Shown piece after piece: positions 2,301 to 24,965 of a stretch of 34,697 nucleotides of DNA. Numbering within the stretch: the stretch's first letter is position 1; every line of letters begins with the position of its first letter. The stretch lies in assembly GCA_943359525.1 (NCBI GenBank), contig CALRHV010000009.1, positions 1 to 34,697 of the forward strand. The letters run 5' to 3'. The translations under genes were made by a program, and so were the position numbers. Under the pieces are notes generated by a model. It did no database searches and was not told the origin of the DNA. It saw nothing but the letters and a program-made list of their open reading frames with translations. This DNA comes from Candidatus Uhrbacteria bacterium (GTDB taxonomy: Bacteria > Patescibacteriota > Patescibacteriia > UBA9934).

Positions 2301-4334
2301 CTACTTTGCTCCCTCCACACTCAATGTTCGAGCATGAAGCTCTTCGGTGTAGGCTTCAAGAATATCTCCGATTTCGATTTTTGTCTTGCCCACAAAACTC
2401 AATCCACAGTCCTGGCCCGCAAGTACATCCTTTACTGCTGACTTTCCGCTCTGGAGTGCCTCGATCTTTCCTTCTCCCACAATCTTTCCATCGCGAAGCA
2501 CACGAACGATGGCGTTTGGAATGAGCTTTCCCTTCTTTACCTTCGCACCAACGATGTGGCCCTTGTCGGTCTTCTTGAAGAGCGCGAGCACTTCAGCAAC
2601 ACCGATTTCTGTGTGAATCTTTTCTGAAGGAATCAGCTTCTTCAAACGCTCAACCGTGTTTTCGAACAGCTTATAAATAACAGAATATTCTTCGACAGCA
2701 ATGTGCTTATCGCGAGCAAGTTCGTGCGCCGCTGGTGTCGGCTTCACGTTGAAGGCGAGAACCACAGCGTTCGCGGCCTCTGCGCGCAAGACTTCAGCGT
2801 CGGTAACATTGCCGAGTCCCTTGCCGACGATCGTGAGGCCAACGTATGGGTTGTCGATCTTTTCAAGCATACCGATAATTGCCTCGAGCGATCCAAGCAT
2901 GTCGGCCTTCACAAACACGTTGAGCACCGCCTTGCTGCCGTCCTCTTCTACTTCCTCCTCAGTTTGGTTGGTTGTCTTCACCGTCATCTGGCCAACGGCA
3001 CCTCTCTTTGTGGCCTGCGACTTAATGGTCTGCAAATCGTCCGCGTTCTCTGGAACTTCCAAAATATCACCAACGGATGGTGCCTCTTTAAAGCCAAGAA
3101 TCATCACTGGAGTTGATGGAGGGGCTTCCTTGATTGCCTTCCCATCGAACGCTTTCATGGCACGAACGCGACCATAGTTCACGCCGCGAACAGACAAAAT
3201 ATCGGACGCGTGAAGCGTTCCAGCCTGAACAATGATTGTTGCAACAGGACCTTGACCTTTGTCGACGTGACTTTCGATGATGGTTCCAATGGCTTTGCGA
3301 TTTGGATTTGCAACAATCGATGCTTTCTCAAGATCCGCAACGAGCAACACCATGTCCAACAGCTGATCGATGTTCGCGCCAGTCTTTGCAGACACGGGAA
3401 CACAAATCGTTTTTCCGCCCCAATCTTCTGGCGTTAATCCAAGCTCGCCGAGCTGAGATTTCACAAGCTCGATGTTCGCGCCTGGCTTATCCATCTTGTT
3501 GATCGCAACGACGAACGGAAGCTTCGCAGCCTTAATGATATCGATCGCCTCACGTGTTTGTGGGCGCATGCCATCGTCTGCCGCAATAACGAGAATCGCC
3601 ACGTCGGCAACCTTTGCACCACGCGAACGCATCACGGTAAACGCTTCGTGACCAGGAGTATCAATAAATGTAAGAAGCTTTCCATCTTTTTCCACCTGGT
3701 ACGCGCCAATGTGCTGAGTAATTCCCCCAGCTTCCGTATCGATAACGCGCGTTTTACGAATGGTATCCAAAATAAGTGTCTTACCGTGGTCGACGTGTCC
3801 CATCACCACAATAACCGGTGGACGAGCAACCTGATCTTCCGCGTGCTGCGATTCCTGCTCCTTCACCTCTGCCATACGGTCGGCAGCATGAGCATCAACG
3901 GATTCGTCTGCAGATTCCATTGGCTCAGTAATAAATCCAAGATCTTCAGAAACAATCGACGCCGTCTCATAATCAATGCGCTCGTTCAAGCTGGCCAAAA
4001 TACCGGCCTTCATGAGCTCTTGCATGACTTTCGCCACCGGCATGTTGAGCGCAACCGCAAATTCACGCACGGAAAGCGTTGGTGGGATTTTCACCTTTGG
4101 CGCGTCGCCAGACTTCACCTTTTCCTTGAGCAACATCTGCGCCTTCTGGTTCTCCATCTTTTGCTGGAGATATTGGCGTTTCTTGTATTCCTGCCATGCG
4201 TTCATGATGCGACCCGCATCGCGATCTGGGATTTTGATGGCCTTGCCACCAATGTCAAAACCAAGCTCCGGCAGCTTGGAACGCAATTCTTCTGTGGAAA
4301 CCCGCAACCGGCGGGCAAGTTCAGAGATGTTCAT
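2301..4334 (-). CDS. infB: Translation initiation factor IF-2
   Basis: The 677-residue product is a compact IF-2, the GTPase that brings initiator tRNA to the small ribosomal subunit. An N-terminal helical IF2N domain (MNISELARRLRVSTEELRS) and a second IF2N-like segment (TLSVREFAVALNMPVAKV) precede the G domain. The G domain has GHVDHGKT, DTPGHEAF and NKMDKPGA, followed by the beta-barrel and C-terminal initiator-binding domains. The long variable linker of enterobacterial IF-2 is absent. An open frame extends 107 codons upstream to 4655 but runs through a cassette on the other strand. I chose the ATG at 4334 because IF2N begins there and a promoter places the transcript start almost on it. 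It leads an operon with trxA and trxB. Confidence 0.96.
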   Translation of the reverse strand: MNISELARRLRVSTEELRSKLPELGFDIGGKAIKIPDRDAGRIMNAWQEYKKRQYLQQKMENQKAQMLLKEKVKSGDAPKVKIPPTLSVREFAVALNMPVAKVMQELMKAGILASLNERIDYETASIVSEDLGFITEPMESADESVDAHAADRMAEVKEQESQHAEDQVARPPVIVVMGHVDHGKTLILDTIRKTRVIDTEAGGITQHIGAYQVEKDGKLLTFIDTPGHEAFTVMRSRGAKVADVAILVIAADDGMRPQTREAIDIIKAAKLPFVVAINKMDKPGANIELVKSQLGELGLTPEDWGGKTICVPVSAKTGANIDQLLDMVLLVADLEKASIVANPNRKAIGTIIESHVDKGQGPVATIIVQAGTLHASDILSVRGVNYGRVRAMKAFDGKAIKEAPPSTPVMILGFKEAPSVGDILEVPENADDLQTIKSQATKRGAVGQMTVKTTNQTEEEVEEDGSKAVLNVFVKADMLGSLEAIIGMLEKIDNPYVGLTIVGKGLGNVTDAEVLRAEAANAVVLAFNVKPTPAAHELARDKHIAVEEYSVIYKLFENTVERLKKLIPSEKIHTEIGVAEVLALFKKTDKGHIVGAKVKKGKLIPNAIVRVLRDGKIVGEGKIEALQSGKSAVKDVLAGQDCGLSFVGKTKIEIGDILEAYTEELHARTLSVEGAK

Positions 4335-4341
4335 GGCCAAG

Positions 4342-4370
4342 AGTGTACTCGATGAAGGGCTTTGGAGCAA
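4342..4370 (-). promoter_or_regulatory. Predicted infB promoter, nearly leaderless
   Basis: On minus, -35 TTGCTC (4365-4370) is followed after 17 bp by -10 TACACT (4342-4347). The expected transcript start falls at 4335-4336, one or two bases before the infB ATG. The motif spacing is read directly; leaderless initiation is inferred. Confidence 0.5.
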
Positions 4371-4393
4371 GAAATGGCTGAGGATTGCAAAAT
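4351..4393. repeat. 43-bp direct repeat, copy 1 (infB promoter region)
   Basis: This stretch matches 5276-5318 at about 36 of 43 positions by eye, in the same orientation, with shared cores GCAAGAAATG and CTGAGGATTGC. The two copies flank the block holding the 66-residue Cys/His-rich gene and hicBA. This copy contains the -35 of infB (minus) and the -35 of the small gene (plus). Confidence 0.65.
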
Positions 4394-4412
4394 ATCGCAT
4401 CTTTGCTATCGT
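4385..4412 (+). promoter_or_regulatory. Predicted promoter of the 66-residue Cys/His-rich gene
   Basis: TTGCAA (4385-4390), 16-bp spacer, TATCGT (4407-4412). It is divergent from, and interleaved with, the infB promoter region. Confidence 0.5.
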
Positions 4413-4436
4413 GGATGCACAACCCAGGTGCTTCTC

Positions 4437-4637
4437 ATGCCGACTGACTCCAACTGTACGTGCACCCACGGCCACTACGATCCCTACTGTCCGATGCACG
4501 GACACGGGTCCCGTCAAAGCGAAATCCAACACGCGTTCGACAAGACACTGTGGACCCGAATCCAGGAGTGCCGCGCCCGCCCACCACGACCAGCTCCATC
4601 GTCCTACCGCGAGCTCGACCTCGTTCCTCGAGGCTGA
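4437..4637 (+). CDS. Small Cys/His-rich protein of unknown function (66 aa)
   Basis: I do not recognise a family. The product starts MPTDSNCTCTHGHYDPYCP and continues MHGHGSRQS. This gives a CxCxHGH...CPxHGHG cluster of three cysteines and four histidines that could bind one metal ion. The rest is charged and then proline/arginine-rich (RARPPRPAPSSYRE). The ATG at 4437 was chosen because AGGTG sits 6 bases upstream and a promoter lies at 4385-4412; a start further left at 4362 would precede the transcript start. A terminator follows 20 bases after the stop. It is a free-standing transcription unit. A second small Cys-rich protein occurs in the same block at 6602-6868. Metal binding is inferred from residues only. 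Confidence 0.62.
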   Translation: MPTDSNCTCTHGHYDPYCPMHGHGSRQSEIQHAFDKTLWTRIQECRARPPRPAPSSYRELDLVPRG

Positions 4638-4657
4638 GCCAACATCACCGAACACGC

Positions 4658-4702
4658 GCCGCGATTCCTACGCCAGGAGTCGCGGCGGCTGCGTTATATT
4701 AC
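4658..4702 (+). terminator. Repeated-family intrinsic terminator, copy 1
   Basis: A 12-bp stem (GCCGCGATTCCT / AGGAGTCGCGGC, loop ACGCC) is followed by GGCTGCGTTATATTA. It is preceded by CACCGAACACGC, which recurs before the copies at 6131 and 6916. It ends the unit at 4437-4637 and abuts the hicA 3' end. Confidence 0.8.
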
Positions 4703-11279: not shown

Positions 11280-11356
11280 TGGTGCGAGCAGAGGGACTCG
11301 AACCCCCGACCCTTTGGTTCGAAGCCAAATGCTCTATCCAACTGAGCTATGCCCGC
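11280..11356 (-). tRNA. tRNA-Arg (anticodon TCG)
   Basis: The cloverleaf folds completely: acceptor GCGGGCA / TGCTCGC, D arm GCTC...GAGC, anticodon stem TTTGG / CCAAA with loop CTTCGAA, T arm GGGGG-TTCGAGT-CCCTC. The CCA end is encoded. TCG reads CGA and related Arg codons. Confidence 0.96.
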
Positions 11357-11429
11357 ATATCCACTGAACGCGCCAATAGTACTTGTTTTCTTGACCCTGG
11401 TCAAAAAATTGTGCATCATACAGCCGTTC

Positions 11430-11504
11430 GCATCGGTAGCTCAGCGGTAGAGCAGGTGACTCTTAATCACTTGGTCGTGGGTTCGAATCCCGCCCGGTGC
11501 ACCA
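11430..11504 (+). tRNA. tRNA-Lys (anticodon CTT)
   Basis: Acceptor GCATCGG / CCGGTGC, D arm GCTC...GAGC, anticodon loop CTCTTAA in stem GGTGA / TCACT, T arm GTGGG-TTCGAAT-CCCGC, and an encoded CCA. CTT reads the AAG codon. Confidence 0.96.
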
Positions 11505-13161: not shown

Positions 13162-13210
13162 CTTGCACCGGCGCAACCGCGCAGGCAACAGTGAAACCCA
13201 GGAAACTCCC

Positions 13211-14503
13211 GTGATCGACCCCTTCGAGACCCGTTCCCCGCTGTTCAGTATCCTTCTCAACACCCCGCTCTACGCCGTCCTCGCCAATGTGGACGGGAAC
13301 GGCGAGCTTTCCCCGAAGGAAACCGGACCTCAGGGATCGATTGTCTTCATACCGCAAGAAAGCTGCCAATCCCTCGCCGGAAACCTCTGGATCGTTTGTG
13401 ATCGACGTAGGCTGCCGGGAGGAATTCCGATTGGAAACACAGTCCAGATCTACGCCCCAGGCAAACACCTGGCACGGGAAATCGGCGGAGATCGGGATCT
13501 GAACCCGTGGGTCGATGCGTACGGGCCTCCTGCGCTCGTCGTCTCGGCGTTCACGTCCGGCATCACCGGAGCTGATCGTGCGATGGCACAGGCGATGGCG
13601 AACGAACTGGCTGACATCGACTACATGCACGCGCTCGACGCTCACAGCAATGGGGTGTTGGCGCATGCGCTGTATACCAACCTTCGAGAAACGATCTCGC
13701 TCGAGGAACATCTTGCGAACATCAACGAGCTCGAAGGCTACGCCGCCGCGAGCAGCGGCGAAATTGGCGACGAGATCCGCGTGTTTCTCTCCTCCATGCG
13801 GAATCCGCGTGATAGGATCGGACGCTACAATACGTACCGTAAGGTGCTCATCGTCCGCGCCATCCAGCGCCGGGTGAAAGGTATCGTGAATACCAAACTG
13901 GACCGCGTCCAGGAAATCGTCGCGGCGCAAAACGCCACGGCGACGTACATCGCGGACGTGGATGCTCTGGCCGGGCGCTTGACGAGCGTTCTCACCGACA
14001 AGCAGCCGTGGTGGACGAACAACAGCATCCTCCCGAGCGTGAACCGTCGCATGCGTCGCAAGTTCGTGGATCGGCTGCAAGGCTACGTGAACCATCTCGA
14101 GACCATTCACGCCAATCCGTTCCGCACATGGGCGATGCCCGCAGCAGGATGTGTCCGCGACATGATCCACAAGCTCGAGAGTGAACGCTTCGCCGGTATC
14201 GGCAACGATTCCATGATGGCACGCGGATACCTGGAAGCCATGCGCGTCCAGGAACGCGTGTCACGCGGCATCATCGCCGTGCGCCAAGAAGACGGCTCGA
14301 GCGCGGCACACGATGCGTTCGCATCGGTGATCAACTGGTCGCTGGAGACGGCACCTGGTCTGCACATCCCAGCCAAGGCCGTGCGCACCCTCATCCAAGA
14401 AGGCCAGCTCGGCCAGCGCACTCCACGGGTCAAACAGCGCGAAGATGCACTGCGGAACATCGAATGGGCCCTCATGGCCGTCGGCGTCGCACGCGCAGCA
14501 TAG
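13211..14503 (+). CDS. Hypothetical protein, 430 aa (GTG start)
   Basis: I do not recognise a family. GTG at 13211 has AGGA about 7 bases upstream; a start at 13163 would leave almost no leader after the -10. The N-terminal 110 residues look beta-rich (SIVFIPQESCQSLAGNLWIVCDRR). The remainder is helical with many Ala, Arg and Glu, including SLEEHLANINELEGYAAAS and RRVKGIVNTKLDRVQEIVAAQ. There is no signal peptide, membrane helix or recognisable catalytic motif. It is the largest of the monocistronic accessory units in the window. Its codons are visibly richer in C and G at third positions than gyrA next door. Large alternative ORFs on the other strand are shadows. Confidence 0.78.
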   Translation: MIDPFETRSPLFSILLNTPLYAVLANVDGNGELSPKETGPQGSIVFIPQESCQSLAGNLWIVCDRRRLPGGIPIGNTVQIYAPGKHLAREIGGDRDLNPWVDAYGPPALVVSAFTSGITGADRAMAQAMANELADIDYMHALDAHSNGVLAHALYTNLRETISLEEHLANINELEGYAAASSGEIGDEIRVFLSSMRNPRDRIGRYNTYRKVLIVRAIQRRVKGIVNTKLDRVQEIVAAQNATATYIADVDALAGRLTSVLTDKQPWWTNNSILPSVNRRMRRKFVDRLQGYVNHLETIHANPFRTWAMPAAGCVRDMIHKLESERFAGIGNDSMMARGYLEAMRVQERVSRGIIAVRQEDGSSAAHDAFASVINWSLETAPGLHIPAKAVRTLIQEGQLGQRTPRVKQREDALRNIEWALMAVGVARAA

Positions 14504-14528: not shown

Positions 14529-14572
14529 GACGACCAGGCAACCCTCGGGAAGCCTGGTCGTCAATCGTTTTT
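14529..14572 (+). terminator. Terminator of the 430-residue orphan
   Basis: GACGACCAGGC pairs with GCCTGGTCGTC around AACCCTCGGGAA, followed by AATCGTTTTTA. It abuts the stop of the minus-strand gene at 14571 and may serve both strands. Confidence 0.8.
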
Positions 14573-17240
14573 ACTTCTTTTTTCCCTTTTCCTTCGCCGC
14601 TTTCATTGCCTGAATTTCTCGCACCGCACTATCGAATGTGATAATCGCGCCCACTGGAATTTTCTTTGCCTGTTCCTCCGAGAGTCCGTTCTCCTGTAGC
14701 GTCATATTTTTCAACCGCGTAATGCGAGGCGTACTCCAGTTCAGCCCACTGTCTCGGAGCATGAGGTGAATGAGCTTATAAATCCACTCCCCCTTTTGCA
14801 TCACATGCTGCGATCGCTCTTCTCGCGGAATGTCCGCATAGGCTTCCATCACGATCGACTCATACCCCGGAGCATCTGAACCCGCAATCCAGCTTGGTGT
14901 ATCCTCGGCGTGATTTTGCTGGGTGATAGATTGCGAAACGTCGTGGGGAATGCTTTCCACTGAACCCGAGGCTACCGATGACATTAAAGGCTTCCCTTCC
15001 ATCTCATCCAACATGTGCTCAACCGATGCGAGATGAATCACCTGTCCGATCGGTAACGTGTCCCAATCAACCGTTGGGTTCTCCAAATCGGCAAAATGTT
15101 TCAAGGTCAAAATCTTTTCGCTCGTTGCCCGCAAGCCGCGATCCTGAATCTTGTCTTTCAATACATTCCACAACGTTTCACCTTTCGCAACAACGTGATC
15201 GGTTACTGGAGCTTCAACATCGGCCACCAAGGCCGGTCCCGGTTCAGACTCAGAGATCCCTTCGTCAATCGTTGGATCTTCAAGCGCACCAACAACAATA
15301 TGCGATGAATCAGACTCCGTTTCTGCAAACTCATGGAGTGCAATCGCCGCACCGGCAACCGCCGTAGCTCCAGCGGCACCAAAAAGCAATGCACGAACCT
15401 TTGCTCCTGGCGTACGCAGCTGTCTTGACCACCAACCTTCCGGTTTCACCGGATCAACCATAAACGGACGATGCATTTCCGCGTTATCGAGGCCTTTCCG
15501 AAGTTCCTTCCATTGTGCGTCCTTGTGTTCCCTTTCCTCAACCCGTCGAATCATCGCTTGGTGCGCATTCATGATGCGTTGAATAAGAGGAGCATTCGCC
15601 TCGTCTTCGTAATTCACCCCGTGAAGCTTTCGCGCAACAGCACCGTCGATATCCTCCCGCGATGCCTCTGCCGCTAAATCCAATATCGATTCTGGCGTTT
15701 CTGGTAGCACCGGTGCAGACGTTTCATGTTTCTGCGTCTCAACCCGCTGTAACATGTTTTTCCGCGCACGCGCAGCCTGCGCTAACCGAGCTGACGTTGC
15801 CTTATTTTCAAAATCCAACCGTGCGAGATGCTCTTCGTATGCCGATTCAATATCTACACGCGACGCATCGGGACGTAATCCCAAAAGTTCTTCGGGTGTT
15901 TGCGCGTTTCGAATGCCTTCCTCTCGTCGTGCAACGTCTTCAGCAATGGCATGCGGAAGCGGCACGGCAGTAAGGTCCATTCGTGCATTTTTCGCGTACA
16001 CATTTGGCTCAAATGCGTCTCCACCCATCGGTACAGTTTCCGGTGCCTGGTGTGTTGGCGCATCCGCAACGTCTTCCGGTGATGCCGCAAGTGCAGCCTT
16101 CAGCGCCTCAATGCGCGTTTTCAAAACCAAGAGATTGTGCGTATAATAGACGACCTCTAGGTCTGAAGATTGACTCAAGTCTCGCTCCATGACAACGACC
16201 ATTTCATCTGACAACGGCCCACGAAATACGTCGACAGGCGCCTCAAGCACGTGTTCAAGATTCGTAAGTTCAGCTTCCTCGGCGGATTCTAGCTCAGCCA
16301 ATGTCTCCTGACGAGCTATACGCGATAATCCAGAATCCTGATTTTCTGCACGATACCGCGCGTTCGCAACACGCTCAACAAATGATTTCGTAGGATGCGA
16401 TCGTGCCTCCTTCTCCGGGGTAGAACTCGCAACGTTTCCCTCCGCTAATCTTTGCGTAAAAGGACCGTAAATCATCGATTCTTCCTTGTGTAGTTGTCCT
16501 CCATCGCTGTCCTCAACCAACACTGCATCAGCTCTTTCAGGGTCAGACTCAAGATCAGGCAACGCGATCACCGGGGTTGGCGCGTGCAAAACCAAATCTT
16601 CCAATACCATCGGCTCACGAAGTGCAACCTTCGGATTTTCGGGCCAGGTTGAAATCTTTCCAATGTGCTCAGCAATTTCGGCAGCACGTTCTTTGGAAAT
16701 ATCAGGTCGATGCTGTTCATACCTAAACCACGTTTGAATCTGCGCCAAAGTCATGGTTCGATTACGAAGCGCGGAGCCCACAAACAAACGTTCTCGCACA
16801 CGCGAAACGCGATCAGGCCCCGGTTCCTGTCCAGCAATCGTCTCCGGAAGCAGTCTGCGAACAGATTCGAGCATCATTGCTCGACGTCCAAACTTTTTCT
16901 GCGCGTTACCAATAAGAAACTCCAAGTAGCTCAACACGCCTAACTCACGTTCGCGCTCTGGCGTACCTTCCCAATGACCATCAGGACCATCAACCGCAGT
17001 TTTTTTGTCGCGCATCAAGAAAAATTGCTGACGAACCTTTCCCCACACTGGGTCTGCAAACGAAGGGTGTTCATTCACCAATCGATCAAACCGCTCCTGA
17101 GCTTCTGCATTTTGCAACGCCTTCTCTCGCCCCTCAGCGTTAAATGCTTTATGAAGAAGGGCAAACGCCTCTGGTGCATCTTTACGCGATCTGCCACCAG
17201 GAGGGGTCGCTCCAGGAGTTGAATATTCTTTAGGATCCAT
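14571..17240 (-). CDS. Large membrane-anchored protein with J-like repeats and LysM-like C-terminus
   Basis: The about 889-residue protein has no named family that I recognise. The N-terminal 600 residues are hydrophilic and helical. They include two J-domain-like stretches (around residue 450, ELLGLRPDASRVDIESAY, and around 520, DLAAEASREDIDGAV) that lack the HPD signature. A membrane helix follows at about 613-637 (LLFGAAGATAVAGAAIAL). Beyond it are two LysM-like segments: HVVAKGETLWNVL...LPIGQVIHL near 680-735, and HVMQKGEWIYKLI...KKIPVGAIITF near 805-865. The likely topology is a cytoplasmic N-terminus with the LysM part outside, possibly holding peptidoglycan. I use ATG 17240; the ATG at 17309 would translate through the gyrA terminator. 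Confidence 0.8.
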   Translation of the reverse strand: MDPKEYSTPGATPPGGRSRKDAPEAFALLHKAFNAEGREKALQNAEAQERFDRLVNEHPSFADPVWGKVRQQFFLMRDKKTAVDGPDGHWEGTPERERELGVLSYLEFLIGNAQKKFGRRAMMLESVRRLLPETIAGQEPGPDRVSRVRERLFVGSALRNRTMTLAQIQTWFRYEQHRPDISKERAAEIAEHIGKISTWPENPKVALREPMVLEDLVLHAPTPVIALPDLESDPERADAVLVEDSDGGQLHKEESMIYGPFTQRLAEGNVASSTPEKEARSHPTKSFVERVANARYRAENQDSGLSRIARQETLAELESAEEAELTNLEHVLEAPVDVFRGPLSDEMVVVMERDLSQSSDLEVVYYTHNLLVLKTRIEALKAALAASPEDVADAPTHQAPETVPMGGDAFEPNVYAKNARMDLTAVPLPHAIAEDVARREEGIRNAQTPEELLGLRPDASRVDIESAYEEHLARLDFENKATSARLAQAARARKNMLQRVETQKHETSAPVLPETPESILDLAAEASREDIDGAVARKLHGVNYEDEANAPLIQRIMNAHQAMIRRVEEREHKDAQWKELRKGLDNAEMHRPFMVDPVKPEGWWSRQLRTPGAKVRALLFGAAGATAVAGAAIALHEFAETESDSSHIVVGALEDPTIDEGISESEPGPALVADVEAPVTDHVVAKGETLWNVLKDKIQDRGLRATSEKILTLKHFADLENPTVDWDTLPIGQVIHLASVEHMLDEMEGKPLMSSVASGSVESIPHDVSQSITQQNHAEDTPSWIAGSDAPGYESIVMEAYADIPREERSQHVMQKGEWIYKLIHLMLRDSGLNWSTPRITRLKNMTLQENGLSEEQAKKIPVGAIITFDSAVREIQAMKAAKEKGKKK

Positions 17241-17250
17241 ACTTGGATCT

Positions 17251-17259
17251 ATTTTATCA
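17251..17259 (-). promoter_or_regulatory. Extended -10 promoter for the large LysM/J-like gene
   Basis: On minus, TGATAAAAT is an extended -10 (TGn plus TAAAAT, 17251-17256) behind the gyrA terminator. Transcription would begin only a few bases before the ATG at 17240. Confidence 0.45.
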
Positions 17260-17260
17260 C

Positions 17261-17291
17261 AAAAACAATCGCCCCGATTACTCGGAGCGAT
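17261..17291 (-). terminator. gyrA terminator
   Basis: On minus, ATCGCTCCGA pairs with TCGGGGCGAT around GTAA, followed by TGTTTTTG. It lies 19 bases after the gyrA stop and within the upstream extension of the next ORF. Confidence 0.85.
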
Positions 17292-17309
17292 TGGCAAACA
17301 TTCCTTCAT

Positions 17310-19835
17310 TTATTTTTCTTCCTGCTCAATTACCGTTTCTGCAACGACTGTTGCCGTTGCAACCATGTCACCCGTCTGCTTGAATCGCATCACGCGAACG
17401 CCTTGTGTTGCACGACCAATAACGGACACGGATGTAACCGATGTACGAATGATTTGTCCGCCTTGCGACATGATGAGCAAGTCGCGCGAATCTTTCATTT
17501 CCGTCACGTATGCGCACACGAGCTTTCCTGTTTTTGCAGTAATCTGCGCGGTTTTGATTCCCGATCCTCCACGACCTTGAATACCGTATTCCTCAATGTC
17601 TGTGCGCTTTCCGTAACCATTTCCCATAATGGTCAGCAACTGTCTCCCTTCCTTTTGCGCCTCGACAGTGATAACTTCCATTCCGATAATTTCATCATCA
17701 CCTTTCAATTTCATTCCACGAACACCCGCAGCAACGCGACCCATTGCGCGAACATCTTCTTCAGCAAACCGAATCGACATTCCATTCATCGATGCAAGCA
17801 TGACGTGATCTTTTCCGGTAGATGTTCGAACCCACTGCAAGTTATCGCCATCATTCAACTTAATCGCGATCAAGCCAGACTTTCGCACGTTCTCGAAATC
17901 TTCGAGCTTCGTTTTTTTGATGGTTCCGCGGTTCGTCACCATCATGATGAACTTCGCTCCAAGCTGCTTCTTCAAGTTTCCCACAAGCACTGACGACACC
18001 TTCTCGCCCGGTCCAAGCTCGAGGAAGTTCACAATTGCCTGACCCTTTGCTGTGCGCGATGCCTCCGGGATTTCGTACGCCTTCAAACGGAACACGCGGC
18101 CGCGGGACGTGAAGAACATCATGTCGTCGTGCGTTGTTGCCGAATAAATCGCCTCAACCGCGTCTTCTTCTTTTGTTGTTAATCCGATGACACCTTTTCC
18201 TCCACGACCTTGCTGCGTGAACGTATCCGGCGCCAAGCGCTTGATATAGCCGTCCTTCGTCATCATGACGACTGCTGGAACGTCGGCAATAATATCTTCC
18301 ATCGAAAACTCCTTCACGCCAGCCTTCACGATCTTCGTTCGACGCTCATCACCAAACTTTTCTGCAAGATCGACGAGTTCTCCGCGCAATACCGCAAGCA
18401 GCTTCTTTTCGCTCTTCAGAATCGCCTCAAGCGCTTCCTTGATCTTCATCTTCTCTGCGTATTCTTGCTCGATGCGCAACTGTTCAAGGTTCGCGAGGGC
18501 CTGCAACCGCATTTCCAAAATGGCGATCGCCTGACGCTCGCTCATCGAAAATTGCTTCATCAAATTCACGCGTGCCTCGTCCTTGTCCTTCGACTTCTTG
18601 ATGGTTGCGATCACCTTGTCGATGTTCGCAAGCGCAATACGCAAGCCGTCCAAAATGTGCAAACGGTCATCAATACGCGCCAAATCGTATTCTGTCCGGC
18701 GCTTTACGACCTCTTTGCGATGCTTAATGTGCTCCTCAAGAATCTGCTTCACGTTCAGCACGCGCGGCTGAATGCCGTCAATAAGCGCAAGCATGTTGTA
18801 GTGGAATGTTGTTTGCAATTGCGTTGACTGGTACAGGCGGTTCAACACTTTTCGTGGATACGCGTCCTTTTTCAATTCTATAACGATACGAACACCTTCT
18901 TTATTGCTCTCGTCGCGAATATCGCGAATACCCTCAATTTTCTTCTCACGGACAAGATCAGCAATCTTTTCAATAAGCGTGCTCTTGTTCACGAGGTATG
19001 GAATTTCGGAAACAATGATGACGGCTGTATCTTTTTTGCCTTCGATGATGTCGGTCTTTGCCCGGACGACAACTCCCCCACGACCTGTCGCATACGCCGC
19101 TCGCAGATCATTCGTTCCGTACACAATTCCTCCTGTTGGGAAATCTGGGCCAGGCATCACTTCAACAATTTCATCGATCGTCGTCTCTGGATTATCGATC
19201 AGTTTCAAAATCGCTGTGCTGATTTCCTTCACATTGTGCGGAGGAATGTTCGTGGCCATACCCACAGCAATACCAATCATGCCGTTCAACAACAAGTTTG
19301 GAAGTTTTGCTGGCAACACCGCTGGTTCTTGGTGACTTCCGTCGTAGTTTGGAACAAAATTGACGGTATTCTTTTCAATGTCGAGCAGCATCTCTTCCGC
19401 AATCGGCGAAAGCTTTGCCTCGGTATATCGATACGCAGCAGCACCGTCGCCGTCCATGGATCCAAAGTTGCCTTGGCCAGTCACAAGCGGATAGCGGAAC
19501 GAAAAGTCTTGCGCCATGCGAACCATGCTGTCGTACACCGAAATATCGCCGTGCGGGTGATATTTACCAAGCACTTCTCCAACAATGGTTGCAGACTTTC
19601 GGAACTTCGCGTTGGCGCGCAAGCCAATGTCCCACATGGCGTACAAAATTCTGCGATGCACCGGCTTCATGCCGTCACGAACATCTGGTAATGCACGAGA
19701 AACAATAACGGACATTGCGTAGTCCAAATACGCGTGGCGCATTTCTTCCGTGATGCTTTGCTGAATAAGTCCGCCAACAGGCACGAGCCCTGGATCTTCT
19801 GGAAGAACTTCAACGGTTTCGTTTGCTTTTGCCAT
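17310..19835 (-). CDS. gyrA: DNA gyrase subunit A
   Basis: The 841-residue protein is the breakage-reunion subunit of gyrase, which introduces negative supercoils. It has the winged-helix core with [20 protein letters not shown] and the catalytic tyrosine (Tyr137 in AAAYRYTEA). A C-terminal beta-pinwheel follows, with the GyrA box QGRGGKG that separates GyrA from ParC. The residue equivalent to E. coli Ser83 is Ile98, while the Asp87 equivalent (Asp102) is kept. Its start is five bases after the small membrane-protein gene, so it probably ends an operon. No gyrB is in the window. Confidence 0.97.
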
Positions 19836-20807: not shown

Positions 20808-21503
20808 TTACTCCGCCGTGCCATCCTCTTCATCCTCGCTCAGTACACTGGTCCAATACGTAATTTCTTTTTGCACATCGTCCACGGTCGGATCGACTTC
20901 TACCATAGACCATCCATCTTCGAATTGTTGCACGCGCGCCAAAATATCATCGTGATATTCCGGATCACGATCTGCCATTCCGCGCAGAACCTCGATCGTT
21001 TGTTGAATATGAGCTTGCGTTGCCGTCCATCGAACCACCAACTCATCGTATGTTCCTCGTCGAGCAGCCGCGCGCTCATCGCATTGTCGATCAAGAACGT
21101 CGTGCGCCGCATTAATCTCGCGGATAATCTGCGAACGGTCATCATCAGTGAGCTCCGATTCAAACTGTGAGCTTTTAACGAAATCAAGAATGTGCACGCC
21201 ATACTTTACGACAGGCTCCATTTTTGTCTTCACCGATTCATCGAGTTTCGCAAGAACGAATTCCTGAAGTCGCGCCTCTTCGTCGCCAGCGCAAAGCTCC
21301 TGATACGCCATACGAAACGGAAATTCTTTCCTACCGACATACACCAACGCCTGACGAATTTGTTCAATCGTCGATGATTCGTTCTGTTCCAAATCGTCCG
21401 CAAGCTGCACTGCTTCGTCACGAATAGTTTTTGGCGTTAACGGAACCAACCGCGCAACCGCTTTCCGAAAATCCTGCACCATCTCTCCATTTGGGTGTGC
21501 CAT
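20808..21503 (-). CDS. Hypothetical helical protein, about 231 aa
   Basis: I do not recognise a family. The sequence is strongly helical and acidic: DFRKAVARLVPLTPKTIRDE, then QIRQALVYVGRKEFPFRMAY, then long charged helices and an acidic end SEDEEDGTAE. No membrane segment or catalytic motif is visible. The start is uncertain: the ATG at 21503 overlaps a good -10 (TACTAT), so translation may begin at the ATG at 21482 or the adjacent GTG, with GGAG upstream. It is the first gene of a run with the MBL-fold protein, the membrane protein and gyrA. Confidence 0.72.
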   Translation of the reverse strand: MAHPNGEMVQDFRKAVARLVPLTPKTIRDEAVQLADDLEQNESSTIEQIRQALVYVGRKEFPFRMAYQELCAGDEEARLQEFVLAKLDESVKTKMEPVVKYGVHILDFVKSSQFESELTDDDRSQIIREINAAHDVLDRQCDERAAARRGTYDELVVRWTATQAHIQQTIEVLRGMADRDPEYHDDILARVQQFEDGWSMVEVDPTVDDVQKEITYWTSVLSEDEEDGTAE

Positions 21504-21530
21504 AGTATGAGTAGTGTAACGACATCGCAA
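21502..21530 (-). promoter_or_regulatory. Predicted promoter of the 20808-gyrA run
   Basis: On minus, TTGCGA (21525-21530), 17-bp spacer, TACTAT (21502-21507). The -10 overlaps the first possible ATG of the gene. Confidence 0.55.
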
Positions 21531-21708
21531 TAAAAAAGGCAGAAGTACTGTGGAGAACATCGGGTCTAAACTGAATCTTTGAATGGGTTGGGCGAGACGA
21601 TGTGAGTGACAATGAGATCGGCTATCCTCATTTGGAAACGTGACCCTCGGTTTTTGATACTTTTAAACCTGGCGATACAACGGACTCTGATCTCGAAATC
21701 CGTAAATA

Positions 21709-24061: not shown

Positions 24062-24090
24062 TTGACGAAAACGAAAAATTGTGGTCCAAT
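24062..24090 (+). promoter_or_regulatory. Predicted promoter of the orphan gene at 24141
   Basis: TTGACG (24062-24067), 17-bp spacer, TCCAAT (24085-24090). The -10 is weak but the spacing is ideal. Confidence 0.5.
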
Positions 24091-24140
24091 CTTCGGGCCT
24101 TTCGGCAATTCCCGCCCCTTCCACATCCCCACAGGATCAC

Positions 24141-24965
24141 ATGAAGTCCCTTCCCACCGCCCCCTCCTCGCACGCCAACGAAGGACCCCGCACTCAGCGG
24201 ATCTTCGTCATCAACCTTGGTGGTATCGACCTCCGCTCACACGAAGAGCGTGCGGCCGACGAGATCGTAGCGAACATCGGTAAGTGGATTGAGATCACCG
24301 ATCCCGAAACCACCGCCGTACAATTCATGCGCGCGCTCGATCAGCACCGACTCACCCTCCGCCACGCATTCCAACTCTGGGAGACTCTGGAGAGCCTCAA
24401 GAAAGCGGGCCTTCAAGTGGATGTAATTCGTCTCGTCGTGGCTGGCGCGTTCTCGCGCAATGAGCTGATCAGCCCGAACCGAGTGGTCGCATACCTTACT
24501 CGCTCGGACTGGCCGCAACTCCTTCATGCCTGGAAGGAACAGGCGTCGACGCGGGAGATCCGTCACATCGCGAAGCGGCTCGACAGGCAGCGTCGCGCTA
24601 TGATCACAAGCGCCCAGATCGAGCTTCGGCCCAACGTGGAACCGCGCATTGATTCGGATTCGTCTCCCCCGTCGCTCCGCGAAGTTCTCGAGGCCAACCT
24701 CCCAACCAAGGCACAGCCGATGGCTGGGGCGGTCGCGATCGCGCTCGGCATACTGAAGATGGAGCGAAAGACGTGGGAAGTCCCGGCGATCGTAAAGCGG
24801 GTCCAGAACATCCTGGGCTCGACCGCTCGCGTCGCGGACCGACTCATCGAAGCCGCCTTCCGATGGCTCGCACAGATCGGTGTGGTCGAGGGCAATAGCA
24901 GCTACCGCATCCGTGAAGAAGCCAGCGACCCGCTCGGGCGCCAGATCCTCTCGATGATCGCGTAG
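24141..24965 (+). CDS. Hypothetical protein, 274 aa
   Basis: I do not recognise a family. ATG 24141 has AGGA 5-6 bases upstream; the frame extends to 24081 but that would precede the transcript start. After a polar N-terminus comes a predicted strand (RIFVINLGGIDLRS) and then helices such as RHAFQLWETLESLKKAGL. The C-terminal 90 residues (AIALGILKMERKTWEVPAIV, ARVADRLIEAAFRWLAQIGV, then VEGNSSYRIREEA) look like a winged-helix-type fold, which would suggest nucleic-acid binding. This is a shape argument only. It is a monocistronic accessory unit between rpsA and ftsH. Confidence 0.75.
   Translation: MKSLPTAPSSHANEGPRTQRIFVINLGGIDLRSHEERAADEIVANIGKWIEITDPETTAVQFMRALDQHRLTLRHAFQLWETLESLKKAGLQVDVIRLVVAGAFSRNELISPNRVVAYLTRSDWPQLLHAWKEQASTREIRHIAKRLDRQRRAMITSAQIELRPNVEPRIDSDSSPPSLREVLEANLPTKAQPMAGAVAIALGILKMERKTWEVPAIVKRVQNILGSTARVADRLIEAAFRWLAQIGVVEGNSSYRIREEASDPLGRQILSMIA

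Follow-up and report, generated by a model that had tools for sequence, protein, structure and literature searches.

A one-helix protein joining HPD-less J-like repeats to LysM-like domains in a single genus of Candidatus Uhrbacteria: a putative tether between cytoplasm and cell wall

The closest described layout is that of ZipN/Ftn2 in cyanobacteria and ARC6 in plastids, where a cytoplasmic J-like domain and a long helical part are combined with one membrane helix and a C-terminal part beyond it. According to an excerpt of PMC6391411, ZipN tethers FtsZ and has, besides an N-terminal J-like domain, a single membrane helix close to its C-terminal part; the same excerpt doubts the link of the J-like domain to Hsp70. 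Pam16, described in an excerpt of PMC3806816 as bearing a degenerate J-like domain and regulating a J protein, is likewise membrane-associated, but Pam16/Tim16 are mitochondrial, small and without a wall-binding domain. No description of a combination of LysM and J domains was found in the open-access literature searched, including that on Patescibacteria and Uhrbacteria, and in an excerpt of PMC4403809 the two domains are listed for different proteins. The combination present in the protein analysed here appears to be new, the modules themselves being known. The original prediction had called it unfamiliar. No family library recognises the protein, and its layout resembles that of ZipN/ARC6.

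The window, meaning the whole stretch of 34,697 nucleotides that was analysed, belongs to a genome (G000) of 864,550 bases in 23 contigs, from a member of Candidatus Uhrbacteria placed in one genus with four others (G001, G002, G003 and G004). This small group consists of tiny freshwater bacteria. The longest open reading frame of the gene spans 14571-17309 on the minus strand (912 aa). The methionine at position 24 of this frame (M24) is the likelier start on sequence grounds, because the distance from gyrA to the start is then 69 nt, resembling the 57, 62, 62 and 68 nt of the four relatives; it corresponds to the gene end at 17240 given in the original prediction. Residue numbers refer to the 912-aa form throughout, except for the helices of the full model, which are numbered from M24. 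The relevant features are listed here, together with three frames lying elsewhere in the genus.

14571..17240, minus strand: the whole gene with the favoured start M24, 889 aa (ORF, and start compared with relatives)
16650..17177, minus strand: N-terminal helical region, residues 45-220 (helices in the model; identities with relatives)
16080..16382, minus strand: second helical region, residues 310-410, with an RGPLS motif (model; alignment)
15738..15908, minus strand: J-like repeat 1, residues 468-524, with DFE in the HPD column
15534..15704, minus strand: J-like repeat 2, residues 536-592, with NYE in the HPD column
15336..15392, minus strand: single transmembrane helix, residues 640-658, with its positive flank on the N-terminal side (from a Kyte-Doolittle scan and a count of charges)
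14991..15200, minus strand: LysM-like domain 1, residues 704-773, with a helical middle longer than in ordinary LysM
14574..14813, minus strand: LysM-like domain 2, residues 833-912, with a basic C-terminal tail, a duplicate of domain 1
17310..19835, minus strand: gyrA, named from its protein sequence, upstream neighbour of the gene in all five genus genomes
13163-14503, plus strand: 446-aa ORF downstream of the gene and facing it
G000:C3:54500-56500, minus strand (L125): 198-codon frame in which an ordinary LysM domain comes after one membrane helix, a simpler version of the same wall-anchor layout
G002:C1:64000-68000, minus strand (L124): 272-codon frame with an intact, HPD-bearing J domain and an uncharacterised C-terminal portion
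G002, about 4200-4680, minus strand (L033): separate 161-codon frame with an HPD-less J-like repeat, directly downstream of the G002 orthologue

The 446-aa ORF has no Pfam match and, among the 39 relatives, was found besides the window only in G003 and G004; from its neighbourhood it is a possible candidate for a partner. Beyond it lie nusB and then rnc. Elsewhere in the window, a tRNA-Arg gene (minus strand) and a tRNA-Lys gene (plus strand) stand back to back and divergent at 11280-11504, and two ORFs, 20808-21560 (minus strand, 250 aa) and 24081-24965 (plus strand, 294 aa), are without Pfam match.

From its N-terminus, the protein consists of a helical part predicted to be cytoplasmic, the two J-like repeats, the membrane helix and the two LysM-like domains on the predicted outer side. 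Searches of the protein with Pfam, PHROGs and NCBIfam gave no matches, or weak ones below cut-off. Among PDB sequences, the full-length profile matched nothing but phenylalanine hydroxylase (E 0.49 or worse), which was taken as chance. The full structure model, built from an alignment of five sequences, was poor (mean pLDDT 57.9, pTM 0.24).

A search of 39 genomes from the genus, the family and the order gave five matches, all in the one genus and including the window's own. The gene directly followed gyrA in each of them, and the G002 orthologue was assigned from this place together with a weak match (E 2.1e-6). In 380 genomes of the class, the profile of the LysM segment matched four at E 0.001, each a member of the genus; G002 was not among the matches listed, its presence in the sample of 380 being unstated. 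Matches of the full-length profile outside the genus in the same sample (E 0.0067 or worse) were attributed to chance from their score and frame length. A scan of contigs with the C-terminal alignment found four loci, all in Uhrbacteria and on the same contigs as the genus members. The domain order, which the original prediction proposed to look for in other small-genome bacteria, was found inside one genus only among the 39 and 380 genomes. Given its absence from the genomes searched beyond the genus, the gene cannot have a general role among these bacteria.

Over the whole length, the window protein was 55, 37, 36 and 20% identical to those of the other genus members, compared to 94-96% for GyrA among the genus members. 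By region, and in the order G004, G003, G001 and G002, it was 82, 70, 66 and 39% in LysM-like domain 2 and 76, 59, 52 and 22% in LysM-like domain 1, whereas values of 57, 26, 33 and 16% were obtained for the N-terminal helical region, 38, 26, 31 and 17% for the second helical region, and 41, 41, 28 and 22% for J-like repeat 1. The outside part is conserved and the cytoplasmic part is drifting. Differences between the window and G004 were most frequent at third codon positions (0.595 versus 0.335 and 0.306 at the other two), an excess which indicates that the frame is under protein selection.

The two repeats of the type DASRxDIxxAY, announced from the sequence as lacking HPD, were recovered at residues 468-524 and 536-592. 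Repeat 2 appears as a second copy, mostly opposite gaps when aligned with single-repeat relatives. The protein has no Pfam DnaJ match with an E-value of 1 or less, the one match in G000 being on the real dnaJ. Among PDB sequences, a profile (A3) built from seven repeats gave 29 matches with E-values of 10 or less. The strongest genuine match was to the J domain of RabJ, with E 0.057, and DnaJ, DNAJ or SEC63 account for many of the rest. A short repeat protein ranked first of all (E 0.0016), a score that it owes to its repetitiveness; borealin and VspA, among others, were taken as chance. In the 39 relatives, the profile made 20 matches away from this locus (E up to 1), of which 19 overlapped Pfam DnaJ hits, and a DnaJ frame with HPD was seen in nine of the ten matched loci that were inspected. 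The one match of the 20 without such an overlap, a weak one in a 2056-aa frame of G007, had no membrane helix over threshold and no LysM that was noticed, and was dropped. Aligned by hhalign with nine DnaJ J domains, the repeat profile reached 95.59%, versus 0.08% for the reversed control.

In the full model, the helices of repeat 1 lie at 449-453, 461-474 and 481-507, and repeat 2 of the window has a lower confidence. With Foldseek, no match of the J-like repeat fell under E 0.001, the first being a RabJ-type J domain (E 0.61, probability 0.99). VIA placed two J domains at the top for repeat 1, xRbj (Z 9.2, rmsd 2.4, 68 aligned) and 2ys8 (Z 8.2), followed, between Z 6 and Z 8, by many J domains interspersed with other helical proteins. 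With Foldseek E-values of at least 0.6 here and at least 0.07 for LysM below, the fold matches rest on ranking together with sequence. A J-domain fold and a sequence relationship to J domains are thereby supported for repeat 1, from profiles and model. The likeness to the J domain of DnaJ (PF00226) includes the helix order, the LGxxxxAS..EI..A pattern and the profile and fold matches; unlike in DnaJ, HPD is absent, helix II is not basic, there are no G/F or zinc regions, and Pfam misses the repeats.

HPD was present in none of the nine J-like repeats and in all nine of the compared DnaJ. The corresponding column reads DFE, NYE, DYE, DFD, DYE, YKD, gaps, VAE and Q-D; the pattern D/N-[FY]-[ED] is common to five of the nine, so that in those five the loop has been replaced and not scrambled. 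The net charge of helix II ranges from -2 to +1 in the J-like repeats versus +1 to +5 in DnaJ. Because HPD is missing in all nine repeats and the positive charge of helix II is gone, stimulation of Hsp70 (DnaK) by the repeats is unlikely, as judged from these sequences. The number of copies also varies: two in the window, one each in G001, G003 and G004, and three in G002, with one more in the separate downstream frame.

The membrane helix at residues 640-658, the only one foreseen, stands clear of all other segments of the window protein (Kyte-Doolittle 1.96 versus 1.08 for the next best). Each of the five proteins has one membrane helix, its most hydrophobic segment, with values from 1.72 to 1.99; other hydrophobic stretches reach 1.75 in G002, where the stretch is proline-rich, and 1.52 in a helix of G001. 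The net charges of the 25 residues before and after the helix are +3/-8 in the window, -3/-5 in G001, +3/-3 in G002, +3/-7 in G003 and +2/-7 in G004. The positive-inside rule is obeyed in four of the five proteins, the exception being G001, in which the 25 residues preceding the helix are net negative. The outer linker (659-702) contains no K or R and 12 D or E. From this charge pattern, the predicted topology would place the N-terminal part in the cytoplasm and the C-terminal part outside.

The two LysM-like segments that had been pointed out (KGETLWNVL...LPIGQVIHL and KGEWIYKLI...IPVGAIITF) are present at residues 704-773 and 833-912. Pfam LysM found no match in the protein with an E-value of 1 or less. 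Compared by hhalign with LysM domains of the same genome group, both segments together reached 92.3%, versus 0.45% when reversed; segment 1 alone reached 92.7% and segment 2 alone 2.5%. The segments matched each other at 96.6% and are duplicates. The model of segment 1, from ten alignment rows, had a pLDDT of 91.5. Foldseek ranked LysM chitinase domains from first to fifth, with E-values between 0.07 and 0.33; no match fell below 0.001. The best VIA match had a Z of 6.4 (rmsd 1.4, 46 aligned), in a range, below 8, where according to the program's own warning a match may reflect a common arrangement. LysM was named in the title of six of the first 17 VIA rows; the other 11 (CBM50, Kbp-based sensors, plant receptors, injection-system baseplates and an NlpC/P60 enzyme) are presumably LysM-bearing too. 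As sequence and fold agree, a LysM fold (beta-alpha-alpha-beta) is supported for segment 1. The likeness to LysM (PF01476) includes this order of elements, the KGETLW start and the PIGQ..L end, the difference being a helical middle longer by about 13 residues and a score below Pfam detection. The pair may hold peptidoglycan, by analogy of sequence and modelled fold. The profile comparisons placed the J and LysM resemblances above chance, with the exception of segment 2 taken alone, and structure prediction supported the expected folds for repeat 1 and segment 1, with lower confidence for repeat 2.

Peptidoglycan machinery is present in the genome, judging from its gene content, which includes three proteins with transpeptidase domains. 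Two other LysM proteins are encoded, of 495 and 198 aa; the former has two LysM domains and a C-terminal part which, judging from a motif, resembles an M23 peptidase. Weak matches of the LysM profile in frames of 617-620 aa were set aside as putative FtsH from their size and place. An FtsA-type protein of about 420-440 aa exists in all five genus members, as does FtsZ, clustered with FtsA and with a normal-looking tail. At least one extra ORF with a membrane helix lies between ftsA and ftsZ in four of the five members (L136, L137, L138 and L139) and none in G002. Given these components, the reduced envelope machinery originally supposed is not well supported. The genome also has an intact dnaK and an intact, HPD-bearing dnaJ.

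We propose that the protein is a bitopic tether between cytoplasm and wall, with pseudo-J docking modules and a LysM-like wall anchor, a reading to which we give a little more than an even chance. In this model, the N-terminal 640 residues would be cytoplasmic, one helix would cross the membrane, and the two LysM-like domains would hold peptidoglycan outside. The J-like repeats, no longer working with Hsp70, would dock a partner inside together with the helical parts; this partner would change quickly between species while wall binding stayed constant. The anatomy fits the earlier idea of a cytoplasmic assembly tied to the wall, and the tie itself is what we infer. A further-reaching reading, of fairly low probability, is a lineage-specific wall-anchored scaffold of one genus, in which multiplying pseudo-J modules fused to a LysM anchor would represent an independently evolved ZipN-like design. 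A dead chaperone-helper domain would have become a cytoplasmic docking repeat, with peptidoglycan replacing the periplasmic partner.

The resemblance to ZipN, whose J-like domain, single helix and FtsZ tethering (PMC6391411, in excerpt) recall the domain order seen here, would also suit a divisome or septal scaffold that binds FtsZ or its helpers through the cytoplasmic J-like part and follows the septal wall with the LysM-like domains outside. FtsZ is indeed available in all five members, but so is FtsA, in the FtsZ cluster, and no FtsZ tether is therefore missing; the idea of the protein as the missing FtsZ anchor was weakened once FtsA was found. The gene moreover adjoins gyrA, outside the division cluster, and ARC6-like_IMS had no match in the 39 genomes with a positive Synechococcus control. 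With FtsA available and the gene lacking from close genera, a role as sole FtsZ anchor is unlikely, and we regard the divisome scaffold in general as rather improbable. Despite the similar layout, the protein is not, by its sequence, a member of the ZipN/ARC6 family. It differs from ZipN/ARC6 in several respects: a LysM-like pair stands in place of the ARC6-like IMS domain, no ARC6 domain is detectable, FtsA is present, and the J-like repeats are in the middle of the protein in one to three copies instead of at the N-terminus.

A membrane-bound regulator of DnaK, whose pseudo-J repeats would pair with DnaJ or occupy DnaK as Pam16 regulates Pam18, has a precedent in the degenerate J-like domain of Pam16 (PMC3806816, in excerpt) and its potential targets in the intact dnaK and dnaJ. 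The loss of positive charge from helix II, the variation of the repeats from one to three and their fast drift make it an unlikely explanation. Conservation of the outside domains might alternatively point to a surface protein used for attachment to a host or particle, its LysM-like domains holding the wall sugars of another cell, and a host-dependent life is often assumed for these bacteria. By prediction, however, two thirds of the protein are cytoplasmic, which is unusual for an adhesin, and the outside part is conserved, not variable, so that we give this explanation little credit. The low identity between relatives whose GyrA are 94-96% identical could suggest a decaying or non-functional ORF, but all five genomes keep the frame open in the same position, its differences fall mostly at third codon positions and LysM-like domain 2 is strongly conserved; decay is very improbable.

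If the protein is such a cytoplasm-to-wall tether, it would be a further case of HPD-less J modules that serve structurally, for docking, in an envelope protein with one helix, here with an outside domain that differs from those of the earlier cases, and in bacteria whose cell biology has hardly been explored. The constant wall side and the drifting cytoplasmic side point to a partner under rapid change.
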